Source: Chloroherpeton thalassium ATCC 35110
Lineage (GTDB): Bacteria; Bacteroidota; Chlorobiia; Chlorobiales; Chloroherpetonaceae
DNA length: 64,000 nucleotides
Assembly (NCBI RefSeq): GCF_000020525.1
Contig: NC_011026.1
Location: forward strand, 2,834,001-2,898,000
Direction: 5' to 3'
This document shows, one piece after another, positions 2 to 17,013 of this stretch (positions are counted from its first letter, which is position 1; every line of letters begins with the position of its first letter). The notes under the pieces are model-generated. The model had not been told where the DNA came from. It made no database searches and saw only the letters and a list, made by a program, of their open reading frames with translations. Position numbers and translations under genes: made by a program.

Positions 2-2890
2 AGCGCATCCAGTAAGTCTCGTTTTGAACCTGATGAAATTCAACAGGCATTTTTGGAAGAAGCCGAAGAATATTTAGAAAACCTTAACATCGACCTGCTT
101 CAATTAGATAAACTTTTCGGAACTGAGCAGCCTGAGATTATTCATCGCGTGCTTAGAAGCGCCCATACGATCAAAGGCTCAGCTGCGATGGTTCAGCTTC
201 GCAACATCAGCGAGCTTGCCCACAAAATGGAAGACTCGCTACAAATCGTCAGGGACAAAAATCTTAAAGTGCCGCGCTTGTTGGTTGATACCTTATTCCA
301 GTCGGTGGATGCCATCACGGAAATGACCAACCACTTCAAGAAAACAGGCGAGGATAGCAATGAGCACACAAAAGAGCTCATCGACACATTAGCGGAATAC
401 GAAAAGCAATTAGCAGACACGGGTGAGATAAAAGCGATTGCCAAAAAAGGCCTGTTTAAGCCAAATGAAATTCAGCAGGTTTTCTTAGAAGAAGCTTCCG
501 AATTTATTGACAAGCTCAATGTTGATTTGCTCGATCTCGATAAGGCTGCTGGCACAATTCAACCCGACTTGGTGAATCGCGTCATGCGTGAAGCTCATAC
601 CCTGAAGGGCTCGGCGGCAATGGTTCAGCTTCACAACATCAGCGAACTTGCCCACAAAATGGAAGACTCGCTGCAATTTGTTCGCGACAATAACATCAGC
701 ATTCCTCGCCCATTGGTTGATGTGCTCTTCCAATCGGTTGATGTGATCAATGAGATGATTAATCATTTCAAAAAAACAGGAACTGATAACTCGTCTAATC
801 AACCGGAATTAGTTGCGCTTCTTCAGTCGTATTTCCAACAGTTGGAAGAAAAAGGCGACATTGTTGAAGTTGGCAAATCGCAACAATTGATTCACGCCGC
901 AGAACCGAACGAAGCGCTATCAAAAGCTTCTGCGACACCGAAAGCCGCGCCAACTTTGGTAGCGGAACAAACCGTTAGAATCGATATCACGGCTCTCAAT
1001 AACCTCGTTAATCTTTCAGCCGAGCTTGTCATTGCCAGAAACCGACTCAACAACGAACTTTCCTCGATTTATGGCATTATTAATCAATTCCTAAAAGAGC
1101 GGAATGCACTTGGGCAAATCAGCAAAAAAATTACGGTTAGTATCCAAAAAGGTGCAAAAGGCAAAGCGGCAAAAGAAGAAGAAATTGATGAAGACGCACA
1201 AGACTTGATACAAGCGATTCCTGTTGCGAGCGCAGCCGTTACATTTAGTGATGTTTTAAAAGAGTTTTCCGAAAGCGAATTTGATCGTTTCAGTGATTTG
1301 GATATCATTTCACGTGATGTAAAATCCAGCATTTTAAACTTTGACGATTCGATTAAGGAACTTCGCGATCTCACCACATTTATCAACCAGAACATCGTCA
1401 AAGTTTCCAACATTGCCAACGACTTGAACCGCGTGATTGTCGGCATGAGAATGGTTCCAGTCAAGCAAATGTTTATTCGCTTCAGCCGGTCTGTTCGCGA
1501 CATTGCCAAAAATGAAGAAAAGAAAATCAACCTGCTCACAGAAGGCGATGATACGAAGCTTGACAAAATGGTGATGGAAGACGTGATCGAGCCGATGATG
1601 CATATTGTTCGCAACGCTATCGGTCACGGTCTTGAAAAGCCAGAAGAACGGCGCAAAAACGGGAAAAATGAAACCGGCCAATTGATTTTGCGGGCTTATC
1701 AAAAAGGCAACCGCGTGATTCTGGAAGTTGAAGATGATGGCAAGGGAATTTCGGTTGAAAAAGTCAAGCGCAAAGCGATAGAAAAAGGCATTATCACCGA
1801 AAGCGAAGCGACCACCATTACACCGGAAGCAACCACAGAACTTATCTTCCGCCCTGGTTTCAGCACAGCGGAAAAGGTAACGGAACTTCACGGCAGAGGC
1901 GTCGGCTTGGATGTTGTTTATACGACCATTCGCAATCTGAAAGGGTTTGTGAACATTGAGACCAAAGAAGGCCAAGGCACAAAGTTTATCATTTCGCTTC
2001 CGCTAACACTCGCCATCAGCGATGCTTTGCTTATTGAAGCGGCTGGCAACACTTACGCGATTCCGCTGGACATGGTGTTTGAGACGGTCAATATCCCGGA
2101 TTACGCCATCGAGCACGAGGACAATAAAATGTTTGTCAACATTCGCAATGAGCGCATCGAACTGGCATATCTGAATGCTCTGCTTAACTATAACTCTGAT
2201 ATTCTGAAATTCAAGGCGATGCTGCCCGTTGTGGTTATTGAGCTTGAAGATAGAAAAGTGGCTGTTGGAATCGAAAAGCTGATCAATAAAGAAGAAATCG
2301 TTGTAAAAACACTCGGTTCTCATCTTAGAAACGTTCGCGGCGTCATTGGCGCTACCATCATGGGCGATGGCCAAGTGGTTATCATTTTGGATATGAACTA
2401 TCTGCTTCGCGCACCAGAAGCAAAAGGCCGCGATGTTTATATTACCTTTGAATCTCAACCGACCCAAAAGGAAGTCGCAAAAGAGATAGAAGAACCGAAA
2501 CGCCAAAAACGCAAGAGAAAAGGCGAGAAAATTACCGTGCTTGCGGCTGACGACTCGCCGAGCGTTAGAAAATATATTCAATCCGTTTTGCACCAGGCCG
2601 ATATTGATGTGGTCAGCGTGGACGACGGCCTTAACGCCCTGAATAAACTACCGACTGCAAACTGTGACCTTATTATTACGGACTTGGAAATGCCTCGCAT
2701 GAACGGCTTCGAATTGGTATCTGAAGTTCGGAAGCTTTCTCAATACAAAGATATTCCAATTATCGTGGTGACCGCCCGCGCTGGAGATAAACACAGACGC
2801 AAAGGAATTGAGCTTGGCGCAAATGCTTTCTTAAACAAGCCTTTTGACCCTGTTCAACTCATAGAAACAATTGAAAGCTTTGTCTCATAA
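2..2890 (+). CDS. cheA: Multi-HPt CheA-type hybrid histidine kinase (5' end outside window)
   Basis: Central kinase of a chemosensory array, passing phosphate from ATP to HPt histidines and then to receivers. The frame is open to the window edge, so the N-terminus is missing. Counting from the in-frame TTG at 53: HPt with His38, second HPt with His182 (both in AHT-KGSA), dimerisation region with a charged insertion (about 360-420), HATPase domain with N-box (about 517) and G2 box GRGVGLDVV (about 613), CheW-like domain (650-795) and a C-terminal receiver (826-945) with phosphoacceptor Asp877, conserved Thr and Lys. The N-box reads RNAIGHG, with Gly where CheA usually has Asp. Multiple HPts plus a fused receiver resemble ChpA/PilL-type kinases of surface motility more than flagellar CheA. 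First visible gene of the operon ending with mglA at 6301. Confidence 0.93.
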   Translation, partial: SASSKSRFEPDEIQQAFLEEAEEYLENLNIDLLQLDKLFGTEQPEIIHRVLRSAHTIKGSAAMVQLRNISELAHKMEDSLQIVRDKNLKVPRLLVDTLFQSVDAITEMTNHFKKTGEDSNEHTKELIDTLAEYEKQLADTGEIKAIAKKGLFKPNEIQQVFLEEASEFIDKLNVDLLDLDKAAGTIQPDLVNRVMREAHTLKGSAAMVQLHNISELAHKMEDSLQFVRDNNISIPRPLVDVLFQSVDVINEMINHFKKTGTDNSSNQPELVALLQSYFQQLEEKGDIVEVGKSQQLIHAAEPNEALSKASATPKAAPTLVAEQTVRIDITALNNLVNLSAELVIARNRLNNELSSIYGIINQFLKERNALGQISKKITVSIQKGAKGKAAKEEEIDEDAQDLIQAIPVASAAVTFSDVLKEFSESEFDRFSDLDIISRDVKSSILNFDDSIKELRDLTTFINQNIVKVSNIANDLNRVIVGMRMVPVKQMFIRFSRSVRDIAKNEEKKINLLTEGDDTKLDKMVMEDVIEPMMHIVRNAIGHGLEKPEERRKNGKNETGQLILRAYQKGNRVILEVEDDGKGISVEKVKRKAIEKGIITESEATTITPEATTELIFRPGFSTAEKVTELHGRGVGLDVVYTTIRNLKGFVNIETKEGQGTKFIISLPLTLAISDALLIEAAGNTYAIPLDMVFETVNIPDYAIEHEDNKMFVNIRNERIELAYLNALLNYNSDILKFKAMLPVVVIELEDRKVAVGIEKLINKEEIVVKTLGSHLRNVRGVIGATIMGDGQVVIILDMNYLLRAPEAKGRDVYITFESQPTQKEVAKEIEEPKRQKRKRKGEKITVLAADDSPSVRKYIQSVLHQADIDVVSVDDGLNALNKLPTANCDLIITDLEMPRMNGFELVSEVRKLSQYKDIPIIVVTARAGDKHRRKGIELGANAFLNKPFDPVQLIETIESFVS
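20..869 (+). repeat. 432-bp in-frame tandem duplication encoding the two HPt domains
   Basis: Copy 1 starts near 20 and copy 2 near 452, an offset of 432 bp (144 codons). Identity is highest around 188-241 versus 620-673, where only a couple of bases differ over about 53 nt. The phosphorylatable His and the flanking helices are kept in both copies. More copies may lie upstream of the window. Confidence 0.85.
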
Positions 2891-2976
2891 CCAAGCCTTT
2901 ATTTGGAAAGATACTTTGCTTATATTCATTTTATCTATAAAAAAGTGAAGGACTTTAAAAGGCAAAGCCTGTTTCA

Positions 2977-3462
2977 ATGAAAAAAAGCTCAGCACCAAAA
3001 AGCACCAAAACGCAGGAACGGACAACAGACATCTTGATATGTGAAATCGGGAAGGAATTGTTTGGCATTGAAGCCAGCTTGGTTAAAATTGTGACTGAAT
3101 TTTCTGAGCTCGACCCCGGCGTGATTATCGAACCTTATATTGGCTCCATTGCTTTGTCCGATACAAAGATTCCCTTGATTAACCTGGCACAGTTTTTTCA
3201 GCTCAATAGCACTGACCACCAAAACAAACACACCGCAGTAATTGTGTCTTTCAATGATAAAGATTTTTACTCCGTTGTTATTTCAAATATCATTGGAATT
3301 ACTCAGGTAAAGGTTTTTCACAAAATTCCTGAGCAAGGGCTTTTGTATAAAAACGTATATAAATCACTATTTTCTTATCAAGAAACATTTTTACTATTGC
3401 TTGACTTGCAAACGTTGTTCGATAAGATTGTTGAACAGGAACAGCTCAAAGGCCACCTATAA
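2977..3462 (+). CDS. CheW-like scaffold protein
   Basis: 161 residues. A polar, basic N-terminal tail (1-17) is followed by a single CheW-like beta domain: LICEIGKELFGIEASLV at the start, an IPLINLAQFF strand near 70, and a C-terminal LLLLDLQTLFDKI helix. CheW proteins couple receptors to the CheA P5 domain. It lies 86 bp behind the cheA-like gene on the same strand and is followed after 17 bp by a second CheW-like gene. Sequence is divergent from enteric CheW, so the family call rests on length, pattern and context. Confidence 0.8.
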   Translation: MKKSSAPKSTKTQERTTDILICEIGKELFGIEASLVKIVTEFSELDPGVIIEPYIGSIALSDTKIPLINLAQFFQLNSTDHQNKHTAVIVSFNDKDFYSVVISNIIGITQVKVFHKIPEQGLLYKNVYKSLFSYQETFLLLLDLQTLFDKIVEQEQLKGHL

Positions 3463-3479
3463 AGTTTTTAATTCGATTT

Positions 3480-3950
3480 ATGCACCAATATTTGATTTGT
3501 AGAATTGGAAGGCACCTTTTCGCATTGCCGTCTCGCCATGTCAAAAAAGCAACTTCGGTGCTCCCCCATTTAAAAATACCCTTGCTAAAACCATTTATTT
3601 TAGGGTTGGTTTTCTACAATAAGCAATTCATTTATAAAATCGCCTTAGATAGCCTTTTAGATCTTGGCTTATATAAAAGTTTCTCCGAGGTCACATCCGA
3701 TGCAACCTTGGTTCTTGAAATCAATGAAACCATGTTTTGCGCGACTGTTAATGATGTGAATACCATTGCGACCATTGAACACACCAAGATTAAAGCACTC
3801 TCCGGCTTGCCAGAAAATTCAAACGAGTTTTTCCCTAATAAAAAATATCTTAGCGGATATTTTGAGCAGGGGAAAAATGATATATATATCATAAACTTAT
3901 CTGAAGTACATCATTCATGTTTTCAGAATAATTTAGAAACGGGAATTTAA
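3480..3950 (+). CDS. Second, divergent CheW-like protein
   Basis: 156 residues with the CheW pattern: MHQYLICRIGRHLFALPSRH at the N-terminus, a strand pair near 45-60 and a C-terminal DIYIINLSEV strand. Less conserved than its upstream neighbour, so it may serve a separate receptor set or act as a coupling-protein variant. It sits 17 bp after the first cheW-like gene and 16 bp before the receiver gene, consistent with one transcript. Two CheW-like proteins in one operon is usual for Chp/Frz-type systems. Confidence 0.72.
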   Translation: MHQYLICRIGRHLFALPSRHVKKATSVLPHLKIPLLKPFILGLVFYNKQFIYKIALDSLLDLGLYKSFSEVTSDATLVLEINETMFCATVNDVNTIATIEHTKIKALSGLPENSNEFFPNKKYLSGYFEQGKNDIYIINLSEVHHSCFQNNLETGI

Positions 3951-3966
3951 CCCAAACTTATTTCCT

Positions 3967-5154
3967 ATGTCACCTTCCGCAGCAGAATCTGAAGAGGCCA
4001 AACGCCGCGTCTTAGTTGTTGATGATGAACAAAGCATTGCGATGGGCATTTTGAAAATGCTTCATCAAAATAATTTGTATTCTGCCAGTCATGCGCCCAA
4101 TGGAGAAAAAGCACTGGAATTTTTATCAAATGCCCCTTATGACTTGGTTATTACGGATATTCGTATGCCGGGCATGAATGGAATTGATCTCCTCAAGCAT
4201 GTTCGCAGTCACTACCCCAATATTGGGGTCATCATTATGACGGCCTATGGCTCTCCCGAAGTTCAAGATGAAGCTTCACGAAGAGGTTCTTTGTCTTACA
4301 TCGAAAAACCGTTTGATTTATCTAAACTTCAGTCAATTATCGAAGACTTCTTCAGCAAGAAAAATATCAAGCACGATGCGGCTGATGACCCCCAACCTGA
4401 AGAAAGTGTGCAAGGAATTATTCCTGGACTGCAGCTCATGGATGTGGTTCAAATGAACTGCCTGTCGCGCATGACCTGCACCCTGCTTATTAAAAGCAGT
4501 GGCGAAGTAAAGCAAGGCATTATCTGTTTCAAGAAAGGGAACATCACACACGCAGAAACACACTCGGCTTCCGGCACACGCTCTGGAAAAGATGCTTTTT
4601 TTGAATTGGCATCGTGGCAAGGCGGCAGTTTTGATACGATTCAAGAAGTGCCCGACACGGTAACCATCGTAGATAGCTGGGAACAGCTTTTAATTGAATC
4701 CATGCAATATGTCAGCGATGTGACGGAAGATACGGACGCGAAAACGCCAAAGGTCCGCCCAAAAGTTAAAGAGGAAATTCACAGCGAGGCTGAAAGTGGC
4801 GATACATCGAAAATGCTCGATCGAATTATGGACGGCGCAGAAGCGCATGCTGTTTATATGATTACCAGCGACGGCTTTGTGATCGATAAGCGCTTAAAAG
4901 AAGAACAGCTCGACCTGGTAAAATCCAGCGATGAAATTGCCAAAATTTTGCCAAATATTCTTTCTGTGAGCCAAGCCATCAACGCAGGAAAATTGCATGA
5001 AATTAACTTTCGATTTGCTAACAGCATTATGATGATTCGCAATGTTGAGGATAGCGATCTCCTGATCATTGTTATTTCACCATCCAGCGTACCATCAGGA
5101 AATATGTACAAGTCCATCTTAAAAGAATCCGAAAATCTGAAGAAAATCATTTGA
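3967..5154 (+). CDS. Response regulator: receiver + DUF4388 + C-terminal roadblock-like domain
   Basis: 395 residues. The N-terminal receiver (about 12-135) has the acidic pair in VVDDEQS, phosphoacceptor Asp in VITDIRMPGMNG, Thr in MTAYG and Lys in EKPF. A DUF4388/PATAN-type region follows (about 150-255; GQGI-like signature QGIICFKKGNITHAE). After a charged linker, residues 275-395 (DRIMDGAEAHAVYMITSDGFVI through ILKESENLKKII) resemble a roadblock/LC7 fold. DUF4388 occurs in regulators of surface motility, and roadblock proteins are GTPase partners, so this may link CheA phosphorylation to the downstream MglA GTPase. The last assignment is inference from pattern and context. Confidence 0.85.
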   Translation: MSPSAAESEEAKRRVLVVDDEQSIAMGILKMLHQNNLYSASHAPNGEKALEFLSNAPYDLVITDIRMPGMNGIDLLKHVRSHYPNIGVIIMTAYGSPEVQDEASRRGSLSYIEKPFDLSKLQSIIEDFFSKKNIKHDAADDPQPEESVQGIIPGLQLMDVVQMNCLSRMTCTLLIKSSGEVKQGIICFKKGNITHAETHSASGTRSGKDAFFELASWQGGSFDTIQEVPDTVTIVDSWEQLLIESMQYVSDVTEDTDAKTPKVRPKVKEEIHSEAESGDTSKMLDRIMDGAEAHAVYMITSDGFVIDKRLKEEQLDLVKSSDEIAKILPNILSVSQAINAGKLHEINFRFANSIMMIRNVEDSDLLIIVISPSSVPSGNMYKSILKESENLKKII

Positions 5155-5197
5155 TGAGTTTCAAAATTGACGGCGTTTTTTTTACTTTTCCAGAAGC

Positions 5198-5578
5198 TTG
5201 GACATTATTACGCAACTTATGTTAAAAAATTTTAGTGAGGCGATTGCGCTACTTGATGCACATCCATCGGTAACAGGAGTATTACTTCTCGATACGGAGG
5301 GCTTGATACTTGGAAGTTCGCTTTCTAATCAAGAACGCTCTGAACTTCTCGCACCCACTTATCTATCTTTGATGATAGATATTTACAAGCACATGAATGC
5401 ACTTGATGAAATTGCAAATCAGGTTTGTTTGGTTCAGAGTAAACAGTTAGTATTGATTCAACCGATTTATGATATTATTTTGGTTGTCTATACCGAAAAA
5501 AAAGAACTTGACGAGCTACAATCCAAAATTAAAGCTGCGGTATCGATTTTAAAAGCCATAGCTCAACCGGAATTCTAA
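5198..5578 (+). CDS. mglB: Roadblock/LC7 domain protein, MglB-like
   Basis: 126 residues from TTG 5198, or 119 from the in-frame ATG at 5219, which I find equally plausible. One roadblock/LC7 domain: SVTGVLLLDTEGLILGSSLS, then a long amphipathic helix and QPIYDIILVVYTE. Stand-alone roadblock proteins beside a Ras-like GTPase act as MglB-type GTPase-activating proteins. The gene lies 43 bp after the receiver gene and 21 bp before mglA, the usual mglB-mglA arrangement. The intervening 43 bp contain an ATG at 5154 (overlapping the upstream TGA) opening a 23-codon frame through an 8-T run; I do not call it a gene. Confidence 0.82.
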   Translation: MDIITQLMLKNFSEAIALLDAHPSVTGVLLLDTEGLILGSSLSNQERSELLAPTYLSLMIDIYKHMNALDEIANQVCLVQSKQLVLIQPIYDIILVVYTEKKELDELQSKIKAAVSILKAIAQPEF

Positions 5579-5599
5579 ACATCAAAATACAGTAAAACA

Positions 5600-6301
5600 A
5601 TGGCAAATATTAATTATGCTAACAAAGAAATCATTATAAAGATTGTTTACTATGGCCCTGGAATGAGTGGAAAAACCACGAATTTGCAGGTCATTCACCA
5701 GATGGTTCCGCAAAATGCTGCTAGCAAAATGATTTCATTAGCAACAGAACAAGACCGCACGCTTTTTTTTGATTTGCTACCGCTTTCACTTGGTTCAGTT
5801 AAAGGCTTCAACACAAAATTTCAGCTTTACACCGTACCTGGTCAGGTTTATTATAATACCACCAGAAAGCTTGTTTTGAATGGTGTAGATGGAGTCGTCT
5901 TTGTAGCTGATTCGCAAAAAGACAAGATGGATGAGAACAAGGAGAGCATCAACAACCTTAAGGAAAACCTCTCCGAATATGGCATTGACATGAACAACTT
6001 CGCCGTGGTCATGCAATACAATAAGCGCGACATGGACAACCTTTCTTCCATTGAGGAACTTCAAAAAGAGCTCAATCCTTATGGATTCCCTTACACGGAA
6101 GCCGTTGCTGTTAAAGGCACTGGCTTGATGGAAACGCTGAAATTAATCAGCAAAATTACGCTTGCACGCATTGGCCAGAAATCGCCATCTTCTTCCACAC
6201 CTGCGCCTCAGCCACAAGCAAACGAAGGAGCACAGGGCGGCCAAGATGCACAAAAAAGCAGTGAGTTCTTCAAAAACTTGATGAACAAAATGAACAAATA
6301 G
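5600..6301 (+). CDS. mglA: MglA-family Ras-like GTPase (gliding/polarity switch)
   Basis: 233 residues. Small GTPase with P-loop GPGMSGKTT (19-27), switch region ATEQDRTLFFDLLP, PGQ in place of the Ras DTAGQ (TVPGQVYY), and QYNKRD for guanine recognition. These are MglA hallmarks. The core ends near 195; a Gln/Pro/Gly-rich linker and an FFKNLMNKMNK tail follow. MglA-GTP marks the leading pole in Myxococcus and recruits the motility machinery. As the last gene of a CheA-CheW-regulator-MglB operon it would be the output of this pathway. The role in gliding of this organism is inferred. Confidence 0.93.
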   Translation: MANINYANKEIIIKIVYYGPGMSGKTTNLQVIHQMVPQNAASKMISLATEQDRTLFFDLLPLSLGSVKGFNTKFQLYTVPGQVYYNTTRKLVLNGVDGVVFVADSQKDKMDENKESINNLKENLSEYGIDMNNFAVVMQYNKRDMDNLSSIEELQKELNPYGFPYTEAVAVKGTGLMETLKLISKITLARIGQKSPSSSTPAPQPQANEGAQGGQDAQKSSEFFKNLMNKMNK

Positions 6302-9077: not shown

Positions 9078-9515
9078 ATGAACCTACATCGTGTTGTTTA
9101 TTATAGCATGGCAGCCCCTGGGCTATCTATGAAAGATGTTGATGAAATTCTGAAGAAATCAAATGAAAAAAATAAACGGTTATTTCTTTCCGGCGGGTTG
9201 CTTTATTGCCAAGGCGTGTTCATTCAAGTTTTGGAAGGTGGCCTTACCGAGCTCAACGAGCTTTTAATCAAGCTTTATGCAGATGTCCGCCACCAAACCA
9301 TCACCATTTTGGAATTTGTCCCTATTCAGAAAAGGCAATTTGAAGGCTGGGAAATGTCTATGGTGTTCTTCAATAGTTCTCGTGATTTTCAGGACGAGTA
9401 CATGAAGTACAGCTCGACCAGCGAGTTCCACCCACGATTTTTAAATGCGCCGCAGTGGACGGAACTCATCCAGGATTTGCTCATCCAAAAAAGACTCAAA
9501 TCCAGAAAAGTTTGA
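9078..9515 (+). CDS. Short BLUF-domain blue-light photoreceptor
   Basis: 145 residues: one FAD-binding BLUF domain (1-95) and a short helical C-terminal extension, with no enzymatic output domain. Aligned from memory to AppA, the flavin photocycle residues are present: Tyr8 (YYSMAAP), Asn32 (KNKRLFLSG), Gln50 (FIQVLEG), and Trp91/Met93 (GWEMSM). Short BLUF proteins signal by protein-protein contact. The gene is convergent with the kai operon and shares its terminator region, with only 67 bp between the two stop codons. A role as light input to the clock is speculation from proximity. Confidence 0.93.
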   Translation: MNLHRVVYYSMAAPGLSMKDVDEILKKSNEKNKRLFLSGGLLYCQGVFIQVLEGGLTELNELLIKLYADVRHQTITILEFVPIQKRQFEGWEMSMVFFNSSRDFQDEYMKYSSTSEFHPRFLNAPQWTELIQDLLIQKRLKSRKV

Positions 9516-9582: not shown

Positions 9583-11100
9583 CTAAGGAAGCGTCGCCCC
9601 ACTTGGATCTTGGAACATGCCACCAAGCCGATCTTCCTCGCTTGAAACAAAGTGCTGAGGATTTCCCGACAAAATCCCGATGATATTTCTGAAAGGTTTC
9701 CCTAAATGCAGCCCTTTATCATCGATCATAAATTCACGAATTTCTTTTTCATGAATTGAACCGCGCATTTTTAGCACGGTGAGTCCACGATGCATTTCGC
9801 CAAACATTTCAACATAACGAAGCAAAATAATGGAATCCGTAATGGTTGAAATGTGCGATTCGGTGACAGAAGTGCCGCCCATTAATGATGGCGTTGTTGC
9901 AGTGAAAAGGCCAACCACTTCATGATGCTTAATGTAGGAAGTCAAGCCTATGACAAATTCACGAAAACCTCGAATGGTGGAAACGCGTTCGAGCGCTGAT
10001 AAACTATCCACCGCAACGCGGTTTGGCTTAAACTCTACGATGGCATCTTTCATTCGAATGAGATGATCTTCGAGGCTTGTGACTTCTGGATATTCACACA
10101 TTACCTTGAGCTTTCCTTTTTTCTCAAATTGCTCAAAATCAATTCCCCAGCCAATCGCATTTCGGAACAGCTGTTCGCGGCTTTCTTCAAACGCAAACAG
10201 CAAACAGCGCTCATCGTTGCTAACGCCACCTGCAATAAATTGCGTTGCCAACAGCGTTTTTCCGTTGCCGGTTGGGCCGGAAACCAGAATGATGGAATCT
10301 CGGAAAAATCCACCACCGCACATTTTATCCAGTTCCGCAACGCCCGAAGTAATGCGCGTATCTGAAGACTTCTGCTTGAGTTCAATAGCCGAAATTGGAA
10401 TAACAATGATGCCTTGCTGCGGGTCAATGGTGAAAGGAAATTCACCTTTTTGGTGAGAGGTTCCGCGAAATTTTAATATTTCTACCGTTCTGCGGCGCTT
10501 TTCATGTTCTAAGACGTTTCTGAGAATAATCACGTTATCCGCCACGAACTCTTCTACGCCGTAGCGCGCGATGTCACCATATTCAGCCGTTCTTTCAGCC
10601 GTCATAATAGCGGTCACGCCCATCGTTTTCAGCGCAGAAGAAATGCGGAACAATTCGCGCCGAAAAATCCCCAAATCTTGGAATCGGTTCAGAATCGCAC
10701 CAATGGAATCCAGAGAAACACGCTTTGCCTTTAGATGGGTAACGGCATTTTCAATTCTCGCAAGCAACCCGCCCAGATCGTAATCGCCAGCGATAATCGA
10801 ATCATCGGACGGACGAGGCGCCGCATCAATAAATGCCCATTTTTGCTCTTGCTCCCACTCTTGAATTGACCAGCCAAAACCAAGCATATTTCTGCGAATG
10901 TCATCGGGCAATTCTTCAAAAGTCACAAACACCCCAGCCTCTCCATGCTGACGAATGCCTTCAACTAAAAATTGCGCAGCAAATACCGTTTTGGCACTGC
11001 CGGCAGTTCCCGCAATCAAAGTGGTTCGATTTTTAGGTAATCCACCATTCGAAATATGCTCAAACCCTTCAATCCCGGTCTCTAATTTTTCTATCAACAT
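9583..11100 (-). CDS. kaiC: Circadian clock ATPase/autokinase KaiC
   Basis: 505 residues with two RecA-like domains. CI has Walker A GTAGSAKT (31-38) and Glu62/Glu63; CII has GPTGNGKT (275-282) and Glu305/Glu306. The autophosphorylation pair is conserved as Ser418-Thr419 in SHISTITDS, matching Ser431/Thr432 of Synechococcus KaiC. The C-terminus keeps a short tail after an ISG-P-like turn (ILSGNPQHF), the region that contacts KaiA in cyanobacteria. Length is close to cyanobacterial KaiC (519), so this is a full double-domain protein, not a single-domain RadA-like homologue. Last gene of the operon, 19 bp after kaiB. Confidence 0.95.
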   Translation of the reverse strand: MLIEKLETGIEGFEHISNGGLPKNRTTLIAGTAGSAKTVFAAQFLVEGIRQHGEAGVFVTFEELPDDIRRNMLGFGWSIQEWEQEQKWAFIDAAPRPSDDSIIAGDYDLGGLLARIENAVTHLKAKRVSLDSIGAILNRFQDLGIFRRELFRISSALKTMGVTAIMTAERTAEYGDIARYGVEEFVADNVIILRNVLEHEKRRRTVEILKFRGTSHQKGEFPFTIDPQQGIIVIPISAIELKQKSSDTRITSGVAELDKMCGGGFFRDSIILVSGPTGNGKTLLATQFIAGGVSNDERCLLFAFEESREQLFRNAIGWGIDFEQFEKKGKLKVMCEYPEVTSLEDHLIRMKDAIVEFKPNRVAVDSLSALERVSTIRGFREFVIGLTSYIKHHEVVGLFTATTPSLMGGTSVTESHISTITDSIILLRYVEMFGEMHRGLTVLKMRGSIHEKEIREFMIDDKGLHLGKPFRNIIGILSGNPQHFVSSEEDRLGGMFQDPSGATLP

Positions 11101-11119
11101 GATTTAGTTTTCCATTAAA

Positions 11120-11422
11120 TTATTCTGATTTTTCAGAATAACGATTATTTAGCTTATGTAAGTCAAGACCATTTATGAGTTTTTCATGGTCTGATAAATC
11201 GCCTGTAATTCGACGCGTTGGTGGAGGGGATAATTTCATCAATGTTGGAGTAGCTAATATCCGTTCCTTCTCAGCAATCTCAGGGTTTTCTAAGACATCA
11301 ACAATTTCAAGCTCATACTCGCCAGACAGCTTATTTTCACAAAGATTTCTCAGGTTGAAAATGGCCATTTCCGAACGAGGCGTATGTCCTGTAATGTATA
11401 ATGTCAACTTAAATTTGGCCAT
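11120..11422 (-). CDS. kaiB: Circadian clock protein KaiB
   Basis: 100 residues with the thioredoxin-like KaiB pattern throughout: LYITGHTPRSEMAI, NLCENKLSGEYELEIVDVLE, AEKERILATPTLMKL and SPPPTRRITGDLSD. KaiB binds KaiC CI during the dephosphorylation phase after a fold switch. There is no additional output domain. It begins 2 nt after the stop of the PAS protein, so translation is probably coupled, and precedes kaiC by 19 bp. Confidence 0.95.
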   Translation of the reverse strand: MAKFKLTLYITGHTPRSEMAIFNLRNLCENKLSGEYELEIVDVLENPEIAEKERILATPTLMKLSPPPTRRITGDLSDHEKLINGLDLHKLNNRYSEKSE

Positions 11423-11424
11423 TC

Positions 11425-12381
11425 TTACTGCTTATCGTTATTGGTTTCTGTTTTCTTACGATCTACTGCTCCTGGATAAATAAATCCAAACGAAAAATTT
11501 CTATAATATGAAACAAGATTTCCCATCAGTTCAAGAACAACCAACCTTGCTTCGGTTGTATATGCCTGCATTTGTCGCGGCGTCGCTTTCTTACTTTTGA
11601 GCTTTAGCGCCGACAAATAGATGTCGATTACATCTCGCGGGCTTAAGTTTAAATGGCCAAGCTCATTGGCAAATCCATTCAAATCTTTAGAAAATTCATT
11701 TTCTACCTTAAACATTTGATTTTCCACTGCTTTATCAATAATCGCGTCCATTTTTAGCACGAAATTATTAAAAACGCCCGTATTCGCTTCCTTTAATGGG
11801 CCCAGTCCAAAATATTTTGCTGTAATGGATGTATTCGCTGCGGTTGTATAGCGCTCTAACGATTGAAGCTGATGCGATTCTTCAGAAAGAAGCACGTTTG
11901 CAAGCTCTTGACGAAGTTCATTATCCATTTTCACTCGCAGCGAATCTGTTCTATTCGTAATGTTGGAATGCGTAATTACGGCGCCATCCGAGCTTGGGGT
12001 TGAAAGATTCGCAATTTTTGTAACAAATAAATTCAGTTTGCCATCTATCTTGCAATTATACTCCAGCTCAAAAATCGGAAAATCCCCCTGTATAATTGAG
12101 CGAATCCCAGATTCTATTTCCCTAACGGTTGAATAGTTTACCTCCAATAAGCGCTGAAAAACATATAGGTAATTTTTCCCAATTCCCCCATTCTCTAACT
12201 TGTCGGCGGCACATTTATTGACAAAAATTTTCCACGAACTATTCACCGAGCAGATCAAATAACTTTCATCCACCACGGCAATAAGCTGCGGTAGCGCATT
12301 AAATATATATTGATATTTTTCTATCGAGTCATCTTTCTCTGTGCATTTCGGGACATTCACGCTTGAGCTTTCTTTTTTCAT
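11425..12381 (-). CDS. PAS protein with C-terminal KaiA/RsbU-like helical domain; candidate KaiA counterpart
   Basis: 318 residues. Residues 20-145 form a PAS-like domain (YIFNALPQLIAVVDESYLIC at the start). A linker (LERYTTAANTSITAKYFGLG) leads to a four-helix region (about 200-296) with FSKDLNGFANELGHLNLSP, RDVIDIYLSALK and EARLVVLELMGNLVSYYR. From memory, this resembles the KaiA C-terminal domain and the RsbU N-terminal domain, which belong to one superfamily; in cyanobacterial KaiA this domain binds the KaiC tail. The cyanobacterial kaiA N-terminal pseudo-receiver is absent; a PAS sensor takes its place. Gene order PAS-kaiB-kaiC mirrors kaiABC. Function as a KaiC activator is inference. 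Confidence 0.8.
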   Translation of the reverse strand: MKKESSSVNVPKCTEKDDSIEKYQYIFNALPQLIAVVDESYLICSVNSSWKIFVNKCAADKLENGGIGKNYLYVFQRLLEVNYSTVREIESGIRSIIQGDFPIFELEYNCKIDGKLNLFVTKIANLSTPSSDGAVITHSNITNRTDSLRVKMDNELRQELANVLLSEESHQLQSLERYTTAANTSITAKYFGLGPLKEANTGVFNNFVLKMDAIIDKAVENQMFKVENEFSKDLNGFANELGHLNLSPRDVIDIYLSALKLKSKKATPRQMQAYTTEARLVVLELMGNLVSYYRNFSFGFIYPGAVDRKKTETNNDKQ

Positions 12382-14604: not shown

Positions 14605-17013
14605 TTAGTTGAGTAAGGTCATTGCCTCTTGAACCACCTCATCGCTCAACATGGCGGTTGATTGACTATCCACCGTAATGCGCAAAGCATAGAGCCCTTG
14701 CACACCTTGCAAATCCTCGATTTCAAGCTCTTCAACTTTCTCAGTGATGCAGCCTGTAGATTGCAGATAGTTTATATAAGCCCTGTACTCATCTATTTCT
14801 TTTTGCTGAGAATAAACAATTGCAATTTTTCCAGGTTGTGTCACCCGTTCTGATGTTCCTTTTATGAGCGCTTTGTCAATGCGCTTTTTAATAATTTCAT
14901 AGCGAACATTGTAAGTACCATCTACGTCGAACAGTTTTTCGTCGGGGCGAAACCGAATGGACAACGGACTACTTTGCACCAAAATCAAATGTGTGGTTTC
15001 GAGTGGCAACGGCAGGTTATGCTTCATACATTCTGTTTGCCTGGCGATGCCACACATAAGAATTAATTGCCATAACCGCAAATTTTTCAAATAGATCGGG
15101 TCAAACTGGCCGTCGGGAACTAAAGAACCACCAACATAAAGGCCATAATCCACACCATCGGTTTTATGCTTTTCAAAATAATGGGGATACATTCGCTGAG
15201 CTTTTACCTCCTCGATTTCAATATAACTACTAACCGCATCAGCAATTTGCGTAACGCTGTCATCAAACGCTTTTCGTTTTTTATACAACACGCCAACCAT
15301 CGGATCAATTTGCTTCCAATAACGATCAATTGCAGCTTTGACCTCAAGGCTAAAACTACAAAGATGCGCAAACAAGGGCTCAATTTCTCGTCTTAGCAAA
15401 TCAATTGCCAAACTTTCAACTTCGGTGCTGAGGCGTTCTGTAATGAGCGAGATCTTTTTATCAATTCGAAAAATCATCTCTTCCAAAATTGGCAATGGCC
15501 GCGTATGATGCGCACGAACCAAACACGATTTTGCCAATTCAAGCTGATCGATCAAATCAGCCTGGATGGCCTCGTTTCTATTGGTTGAAGATCCCCGAAT
15601 ATCTGAAACACCAAACAACGGAATCACATCCTTGAAGACAATTTCTTCAATCTCAGCGTTGGGATCAAACTGCCGGTTGTCGATCAAGCGTAAAGCGGCT
15701 TCTTGAAAACGCCATTCGACAGATGGATGAATCACCGTAAATTTATCCTTGATTATCGCCTGAACATCGCTATTTAATTCTTGTATGGTGCGGTTTACGG
15801 CCATCGAAAAGAGCGGGAGAACTTCATGCAGCCGAATAGCCACAAGTTCATTTAATGCGTCCGGAACTGAAGAACTAATTTCCAACCCGCCAATCAGCTT
15901 ACCTTGATAATAAAGTGGCGCAATCAACAAACTGCGAATTTGTTTCTCTAATAGAAATTCTTCAAAAATCGTCGGATTGGGATACTCTCTCAAATCGTTA
16001 ATGGTCTTAATTTGATCAGGCTGCCAATCAAAATCGTAAATTGTGCCAAGAATTTCCGATCGGCTATAACGCAGCTTTTCAAAGCGCGAATCGCGAAACT
16101 TATCTTTACAACCGGCATTTAAGACTCGAAACTCATCGTTTTGAAATAAACCCATTGCCATAGAAATATCTGGCAACCGCAGCAATATGCGCAACTTTTG
16201 CTGGAGCGATTGAAACTTCGCGTCTGAAATAATAGATTCCTTCTCTATCAAATCGCGCTTTAAGCCTGAAATCACCTCATGATCGGTTACATCGGTCAGC
16301 TTAATAATGGAAAACCCATGAAACTCAAAGTTTTCTGGCGGAATCACTTTTAACCAAACTTCCAGATCTGACAAATTCGCCATTAGCAGCTTGATATCAG
16401 CTTTGCTCAACTTTTTGAACTTCCCACAGACCTTAATATCAACATATTGAACGTTCAAATCGATTTTGTAGTATCGATCCAGCCCATGCACCGTATCTGG
16501 CAGCACAACCACAATGGGATAATCAAAATCCACATCAAGATTATAAAATCTCTTAGCGATATAGGTGTAGGCACGAAGCGTTTTTCCATAGTGCAAGAGC
16601 ACCTCGTTCAAGTTTAGCAAACGATGCCAAATGCCACCATATTCGCCAAACTGCTTCTTATAGGATGGCGACTCATATATCCAATTTTCCGTGAAAGGAA
16701 CAAAAGCCGCTGTATAGTCGTGCTCGGCAACACCATGAGGAAATGCCAGCAAAAATAAGGCATCAATGAGCTCTCTATGCTTTTCAACAAGACTTAAATC
16801 GTAAATGGGTTGACGCAACTCAGGAGCGAGATCAAGTTCTTGGCGCAAGGCTTCCCCCATCGATCGATTTAACAAATCCGATTTCTGAAATGCCCGATAC
16901 CATTCCTGTATCAATAAATTGAAGTTTAAAACTGTTTTAAATGGAAAATTTGGGAGGAGCTTAATGGACTGCAGCTTTTCTCTAAGAGAAACCGCCATTT
17001 CTTCGGTATTCAT
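14605..17013 (-). CDS. Large GAF-domain protein of unknown function
   Basis: 802 residues, soluble. The middle (about 285-415) fits a GAF domain: LRILLRLPDISMAMGLFQND, then LLIAPLYYQGKLIGGLEISS. The N-terminal 250 and C-terminal 380 residues are helical or mixed and match no domain I recognise; there is no kinase, cyclase or DNA-binding motif. I associate this length and architecture with uncharacterised GAF proteins of Bacteroidetes/Chlorobi. Monocistronic, with the ATG at 17013 preceded by a purine-rich stretch. Confidence 0.75.
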   Translation of the reverse strand: MNTEEMAVSLREKLQSIKLLPNFPFKTVLNFNLLIQEWYRAFQKSDLLNRSMGEALRQELDLAPELRQPIYDLSLVEKHRELIDALFLLAFPHGVAEHDYTAAFVPFTENWIYESPSYKKQFGEYGGIWHRLLNLNEVLLHYGKTLRAYTYIAKRFYNLDVDFDYPIVVVLPDTVHGLDRYYKIDLNVQYVDIKVCGKFKKLSKADIKLLMANLSDLEVWLKVIPPENFEFHGFSIIKLTDVTDHEVISGLKRDLIEKESIISDAKFQSLQQKLRILLRLPDISMAMGLFQNDEFRVLNAGCKDKFRDSRFEKLRYSRSEILGTIYDFDWQPDQIKTINDLREYPNPTIFEEFLLEKQIRSLLIAPLYYQGKLIGGLEISSSVPDALNELVAIRLHEVLPLFSMAVNRTIQELNSDVQAIIKDKFTVIHPSVEWRFQEAALRLIDNRQFDPNAEIEEIVFKDVIPLFGVSDIRGSSTNRNEAIQADLIDQLELAKSCLVRAHHTRPLPILEEMIFRIDKKISLITERLSTEVESLAIDLLRREIEPLFAHLCSFSLEVKAAIDRYWKQIDPMVGVLYKKRKAFDDSVTQIADAVSSYIEIEEVKAQRMYPHYFEKHKTDGVDYGLYVGGSLVPDGQFDPIYLKNLRLWQLILMCGIARQTECMKHNLPLPLETTHLILVQSSPLSIRFRPDEKLFDVDGTYNVRYEIIKKRIDKALIKGTSERVTQPGKIAIVYSQQKEIDEYRAYINYLQSTGCITEKVEELEIEDLQGVQGLYALRITVDSQSTAMLSDEVVQEAMTLLN

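Follow-up and report, generated by a model that had tools for sequence, protein, structure and literature searches.

The question of what drives and resets clocks outside cyanobacteria is raised in a concrete form by the kai locus of Chloroherpeton thalassium (CP001100; 3,293,456 bases), an anaerobic, anoxygenic phototroph (PMC2613243): does the protein encoded directly in front of kaiB act as a KaiA, and if so, through which input domain? In the window, that is, the entire stretch of 64,000 nucleotides analyzed here, three open reading frames (12381-11425, 11422-11120 and 11100-9583) form a minus-strand operon that runs from 12381 to 9583 in the order PAS protein, kaiB, kaiC. The stop codon of the first gene, which we denote PAS-KaiA, is separated from the kaiB ATG by 2 nt, and kaiB and kaiC are 19 nt apart. 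The features of the operon are as follows.

11425..12381, minus strand: gene for the 318-aa, KaiA3-type PAS-KaiA protein, at the head of the operon; open reading frame, conserved with kaiBC in L033
11950..12321, minus strand: predicted PAS domain, residues ~21-144; AlphaFold model with Foldseek, and tblastn
11491..11826, minus strand: KaiA-like C-terminal four-helix domain, residues ~186-297; hhalign, PDB profile search and Foldseek
11120..11422, minus strand: kaiB, 100 aa; Pfam KaiB, E 4.9e-27
9583..11100, minus strand: kaiC, 505 aa; TIGR02655 above cut-off
9844..9849, minus strand: codons of Ser418-Thr419, the KaiC phosphosite pair; HIST motif at residue 416
9586..9654, minus strand: short tail at the C-terminus of KaiC, HFVSSEEDRLGGMFQDPSGATLP; seen when six KaiC proteins are aligned

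The KaiC of this operon contains two KaiC domains (Pfam, E 7e-116) and scores 642 bits, above the cut-off, against the NCBIfam circ_KaiC model (TIGR02655). It aligns with the Synechococcus elongatus KaiC at E 1e-173 and with the Rhodobacter KaiC at E 4e-102; on these values, the cyanobacterial KaiC is a nearer relative than KaiC2. In the alignment of six KaiC proteins, the Ser418-Thr419 pair lies within the motif HISTIT, and the Glu-Glu pairs and P-loops are kept in both domains, so that the double KaiC domain, the Ser-Thr pair and the catalytic Glu pairs of a clock kinase are all present. By analogy with cyanobacterial KaiC, the short C-terminal tail is expected to be the KaiA-binding segment. 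In having KaiB and KaiC in an anoxygenic phototroph, Chloroherpeton resembles the bacteria with KaiA-less KaiB-KaiC timers (Rhodobacter KaiC2, Rhodopseudomonas), but its KaiC differs from those in being nearer to the cyanobacterial KaiC and in lacking a long C-terminal extension. The genome contains a second kai locus, at ~87-90 kb (L002 / L042), which consists of kaiB and the gene for a KaiC2-like KaiC of 589 aa, with no KaiA-like gene beside this pair; that KaiC is extended at length at its C-terminus and shows Ser-Ser at the position of the Ser-Thr pair.

The N-terminal part of PAS-KaiA only touches the PAS models by sequence (PAS_8, E 0.033, under the Pfam cut-off). The AlphaFold model of this region matches solved PAS domains with E ~1e-6 in a Foldseek search; the full-length model, built on an alignment of 7 sequences, has a mean pLDDT of 70, with mostly 78-92 in the PAS part. 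The N-terminal half of the protein also aligns with PAS-containing and other sensor proteins in tblastn searches, with E down to 3e-11, and the corresponding domain of an Acidobacteriota relative clears the Pfam cut-off (PAS_4, 2.8e-8). Thus, as judged from the model, the N-terminus of the first protein adopts a PAS fold. We rejected a LOV photoreceptor as the identity of this domain, because the flavin-binding Cys motif (GRNCRF / NCRFLQ) is absent.

For the C-terminal domain, searches of PDB, Pfam and NCBIfam with the single PAS-KaiA sequence produced no KaiA or RsbU match. The Pfam KaiA model (PF07688) matched neither the window protein nor any other protein of the genome even at E 10, the Pfam RsbU_N model (PF08673) did not match the window protein, and a profile of four sequences retrieved neither KaiA nor RsbU from the PDB. 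A profile of seven members of the domain retrieved the solved KaiA C-termini from the PDB with E 4.9e-5. One bridging relative, from a kai locus of Magnetocorallium, reaches 24.7 bits with Pfam KaiA (cut-off 22.2) and also matches RsbU_N weakly. When this bridging second copy of Magnetocorallium was left out, the match of the profile to KaiA in the PDB weakened to E 0.009-0.015 and SHERP, an unrelated helical protein, outscored KaiA, although KaiA chains of three cyanobacteria still filled most of the top places.

Because the match thus fell below a false helical one, we added shuffled controls. Comparison by hhalign of a profile of 23 domains, without the bridging member, to the C-termini of two cyanobacterial KaiA yielded a score of 33.6 (E 2.7e-5) and a colinear alignment over 88-89 columns, whereas 100 column-shuffled KaiA profiles scored 19.0 at most and one reversed profile scored 16.3. 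The AlphaFold model of the C-terminal domain (pLDDT 77) is a four-helix bundle most similar to the KaiA C-terminus: in a Foldseek search of 350,542 PDB chains, KaiA C-termini occupied ranks 1, 2, 3, 5 and 6, with probability 0.96-0.98 and TM (query) 0.44-0.50 but a weak E of 0.19-0.32, the top matches being 5jwr and 1q6a (probability 0.97-0.98). Taken together, the PDB profile search, the hhalign comparison with its controls and the structure search point to a divergent homologue of the KaiA C-terminus as the most likely identity of the domain.

The first-pass annotation of this DNA had described a PAS protein 2 nt before kaiB in the kai operon of an anoxygenic phototroph, with a Ser418-Thr419 pair and a C-terminal tail in KaiC, all of which we found as described. 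It had further proposed that the C-terminal helices of the PAS protein, which we located at residues 245-260 and 277-294, resemble KaiA and RsbU. The profile and structure comparisons that it suggested bear this out for KaiA, at the profile-profile, profile-sequence and structure levels; the likeness to RsbU_N is weak and seen via relatives. The term KaiA 'analogue' was misplaced given that homology is most likely.

The further suggestion of a new KaiA stand-in outside cyanobacteria was in part anticipated. The published text of Kobler et al. 2024 (PMC11372060) lists Chloroherpeton among the carriers of a KaiA3 ortholog in kaiA3B3C3 synteny. Since no other KaiA-like gene turned up in the genome and PAS-KaiA adjoins kaiBC, this ortholog and PAS-KaiA are almost certainly the same. 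KaiA3-type KaiABC systems were already known, and the PAS input appears to be new: KaiA3 is described in that paper as a receiver combined with a KaiA domain, and its main text does not contain the term 'PAS domain'. Nor did we find, in the main texts of the open-access papers searched, a report of the PAS swap or of wide mixing of input domains.

As in the KaiA3-KaiB3-KaiC3 system of Synechocystis sp. PCC 6803, the gene for the protein with the KaiA-like C-terminal domain sits immediately before kaiB, and kaiC comes next. By its published description, however, Synechocystis KaiA3 has an N-terminal NarL-type receiver with a phosphorylatable Asp, whereas the Chloroherpeton protein is predicted to have a PAS fold there. 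Because PAS stands in place of the receiver, we classify the protein as a KaiA3-type variant rather than a typical KaiA3. With the canonical KaiA of Synechococcus elongatus and Thermosynechococcus (PF07688), it shares the four-helix C-terminus, several dimer-interface residues and the A-B-C order, but PAS replaces the N-terminal pseudo-receiver, the sequence falls under Pfam KaiA detection, and some of the KaiC-contact residues differ.

On these grounds, we consider it likely that the three genes specify a phosphorylation timer of the KaiA3-B3-C3 type, in which a KaiA3-type activator of KaiC is equipped with a PAS input. The KaiA-like C-terminal domain would probably dimerize, bind the C-terminal tail of KaiC and stimulate KaiC autophosphorylation on Ser418/Thr419, and KaiB would counteract PAS-KaiA on the CI ring; such a system may be rhythmic, although the sequence would fit an oscillator, a damped timer or a switch. 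The PAS domain appears to occupy the slot of the KaiA3 receiver and of the canonical KaiA pseudo-receiver, and therefore a PAS signal (a ligand, redox or energy state) would most likely tune the activator and reset the timer. Kobler et al. reconstituted the Synechocystis KaiA3 system and, in the published text, report that the receiver-type KaiA3 stimulates KaiC3 and that the rhythms in vitro are damped (PMC11372060).

The residues of the KaiA-like domain bear on whether it activates KaiC at all. We compared them with the conserved KaiA sites tabulated in PMC8113500, using numbering mapped by hand from an alignment with the Thermosynechococcus protein. Four dimer-interface residues are identical (R262=R279, L272=L289, Y276=Y293 and R277=R294, KaiA and PAS-KaiA, respectively), I269 is replaced by M286, an allowed variant, and the other changes at the interface are A270 to Gly, D260 to Glu and E274 to Ser. 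Among the KaiC-contact residues, I266 is replaced by Leu (an allowed variant), M241 by Leu and D242 by Lys260, and F224, a change of which abolishes the Synechococcus rhythm, aligns with Gly242. Thus, as far as the alignment can tell, the dimer interface is mostly kept, and D242 and F224 are not.

The losses at D242 and F224, together with the ability of KaiBC without KaiA to work as hourglass timers (discussed in the published text, PMC11372060), would fit a different role for PAS-KaiA, that of an adaptor or antagonist which binds KaiC (or KaiB) and restrains KaiC or couples it to another output, making the system a PAS-controlled switch. We regard this as unlikely, given that the dimer-interface residues are mostly kept and that in Synechocystis, according to the same text, the KaiA3/KaiC3 contact residues are also less conserved, yet the two proteins interact and KaiA3 stimulates KaiC3 (PMC11372060).

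Relatives of the KaiA-like domain gathered from public genomes place the protein in a wider context. The survey for the three-gene order proposed in the first-pass annotation yielded PAS versions and, in Nitrospirota, receiver versions. The same order, PAS-KaiA, kaiB, kaiC, is present in a Chloroherpetonaceae MAG of another genus (L033), where PAS-KaiA is 31-32% identical to the window protein overall and 48% identical in the C-terminal domain; in an Acidobacteriota MAG (L036), PAS-KaiA precedes kaiC with a KaiB match in between. Next to kaiBC, the module occurs with swapped inputs in Nitrospirota, Acidobacteriota and Chlorobiota.

PAS input: the window; L033, Chloroherpetonaceae; L036, Acidobacteriota; L056 and L057, Nitrospirota set
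Receiver input: L034 (truncated at the contig end), L035, L052-L055, L060 and L072
Weak receiver plus PAS input: L067
Membrane MASE3 plus PAS input: L058, L073 and L075

The module is present in both of the 2 genomes examined from the family of the window, in 4 of 394 genomes from its phylum, in 11 of 246 from the phylum of the Magnetocorallium genome and in 6 of 250 from the class of the Acidobacteriota genome. Further KaiA-like domains, most of them in receiver fusions, lie at L022, L024, L037 (Chlorobiota MAGs), L059, L063 and L074, in genomes where no KaiC was detected (G251, G927 and G1191) or where a KaiC2-like KaiC is the only KaiC and KaiB is absent (G055). Receiver fusions occur in G251, G927 and G1191; hence the module is not strictly bound to clocks, and the fold by itself is no proof that KaiC is the partner.

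These fusions would be expected if the domain were an RsbU_N-like partner-switching module with a target other than KaiC, its adjacency to kaiBC reflecting co-regulation only. The RsbU N-terminal domain (PF08673) shares its fold class with the KaiA C-terminus, according to the published text of PMC11372060, and two of the relatives match Pfam RsbU_N weakly (E 0.003-0.019). The window protein itself, unlike RsbU, has neither a phosphatase domain nor an RsbU_N match, KaiA rather than RsbU heads the list of PDB structures and takes all but one place in the sequence list, and in most of the relatives, from at least three phyla, kaiB and kaiC follow closely downstream. We therefore find this explanation improbable. 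A chance resemblance of short amphipathic helices, to which the weak single-sequence signals and the scores of the unrelated SHERP, as high as those of KaiA in two profile searches, might point, is hardly credible against a colinear 88-column alignment far above the 100 shuffled and one reversed controls, the predominance of KaiA chains from three cyanobacteria in the top places, and the agreement of the structure search and the genomic context.

Beyond the reading of the Chloroherpeton protein as a KaiA3-type activator with a PAS input, the relatives suggest a broader one, for and against which we see about equal chances. The KaiA C-terminal domain may be a plug-in KaiC-activating module that outside cyanobacteria has been joined to PAS, receiver, receiver-PAS and MASE3-PAS inputs, which would make the environmental input an integral part of the timer's core activator, with Chloroherpeton as a PAS-only case in an anaerobic phototroph. 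Such KaiA-like activators, with one output domain and varied sensors, would offer a direct test of phase setting by the input domains, and the same natural set would permit a test for a full KaiABC-type oscillator in an anaerobic phototroph. As to whether PAS was acquired in one event or in several, the best trees, computed for both the KaiA-like domain and KaiC, require three changes, but a single PAS clade was not rejected in the KaiC tree (p-AU 0.17). Searches of plasmids with the C-terminal domains of two relatives gave no match.

Some of the relatives differ in copy number or architecture. The magnetotactic Candidatus Magnetocorallium (G394) carries three receiver-KaiA genes (L035, L062 and L064), each with kaiB and kaiC, and two of the three sets are in tandem. 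The survey of the Acidobacteriota class also revealed short proteins that consist of a bare KaiA-like domain, with no recognizable input domain, and are encoded directly before kaiB and kaiC (L069 and L071).

Two neighbors of the Chloroherpeton operon are of note.

9078..9515, plus strand: gene for a blue-light sensor of the BLUF family, convergent with kaiC; Pfam BLUF, E 3.4e-25
14605-17013, minus strand, in the window, and 2456-4873, plus strand, in L033: 802-aa protein; conserved neighborhood

No other BLUF gene was found in the genome, and 67 nt separate the end of this one from that of kaiC. Its product retains Tyr8, Asn32, Gln50, Trp91 and Met93, which we take to be the positions expected in a working BLUF. 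The gene is tied to the kai operon by position only, and we rejected BLUF as a conserved kai partner, the other Chloroherpetonaceae genome examined having no BLUF. The 802-aa protein has a sub-threshold GAF match only; in each of the two Chloroherpetonaceae genomes, its gene lies upstream of the kai genes. Elsewhere in the window (3967-6301, plus strand), consecutive genes encode a predicted receiver protein, a roadblock-like protein and an MglA-like GTPase, an arrangement that may be compared to gliding-motility switches.
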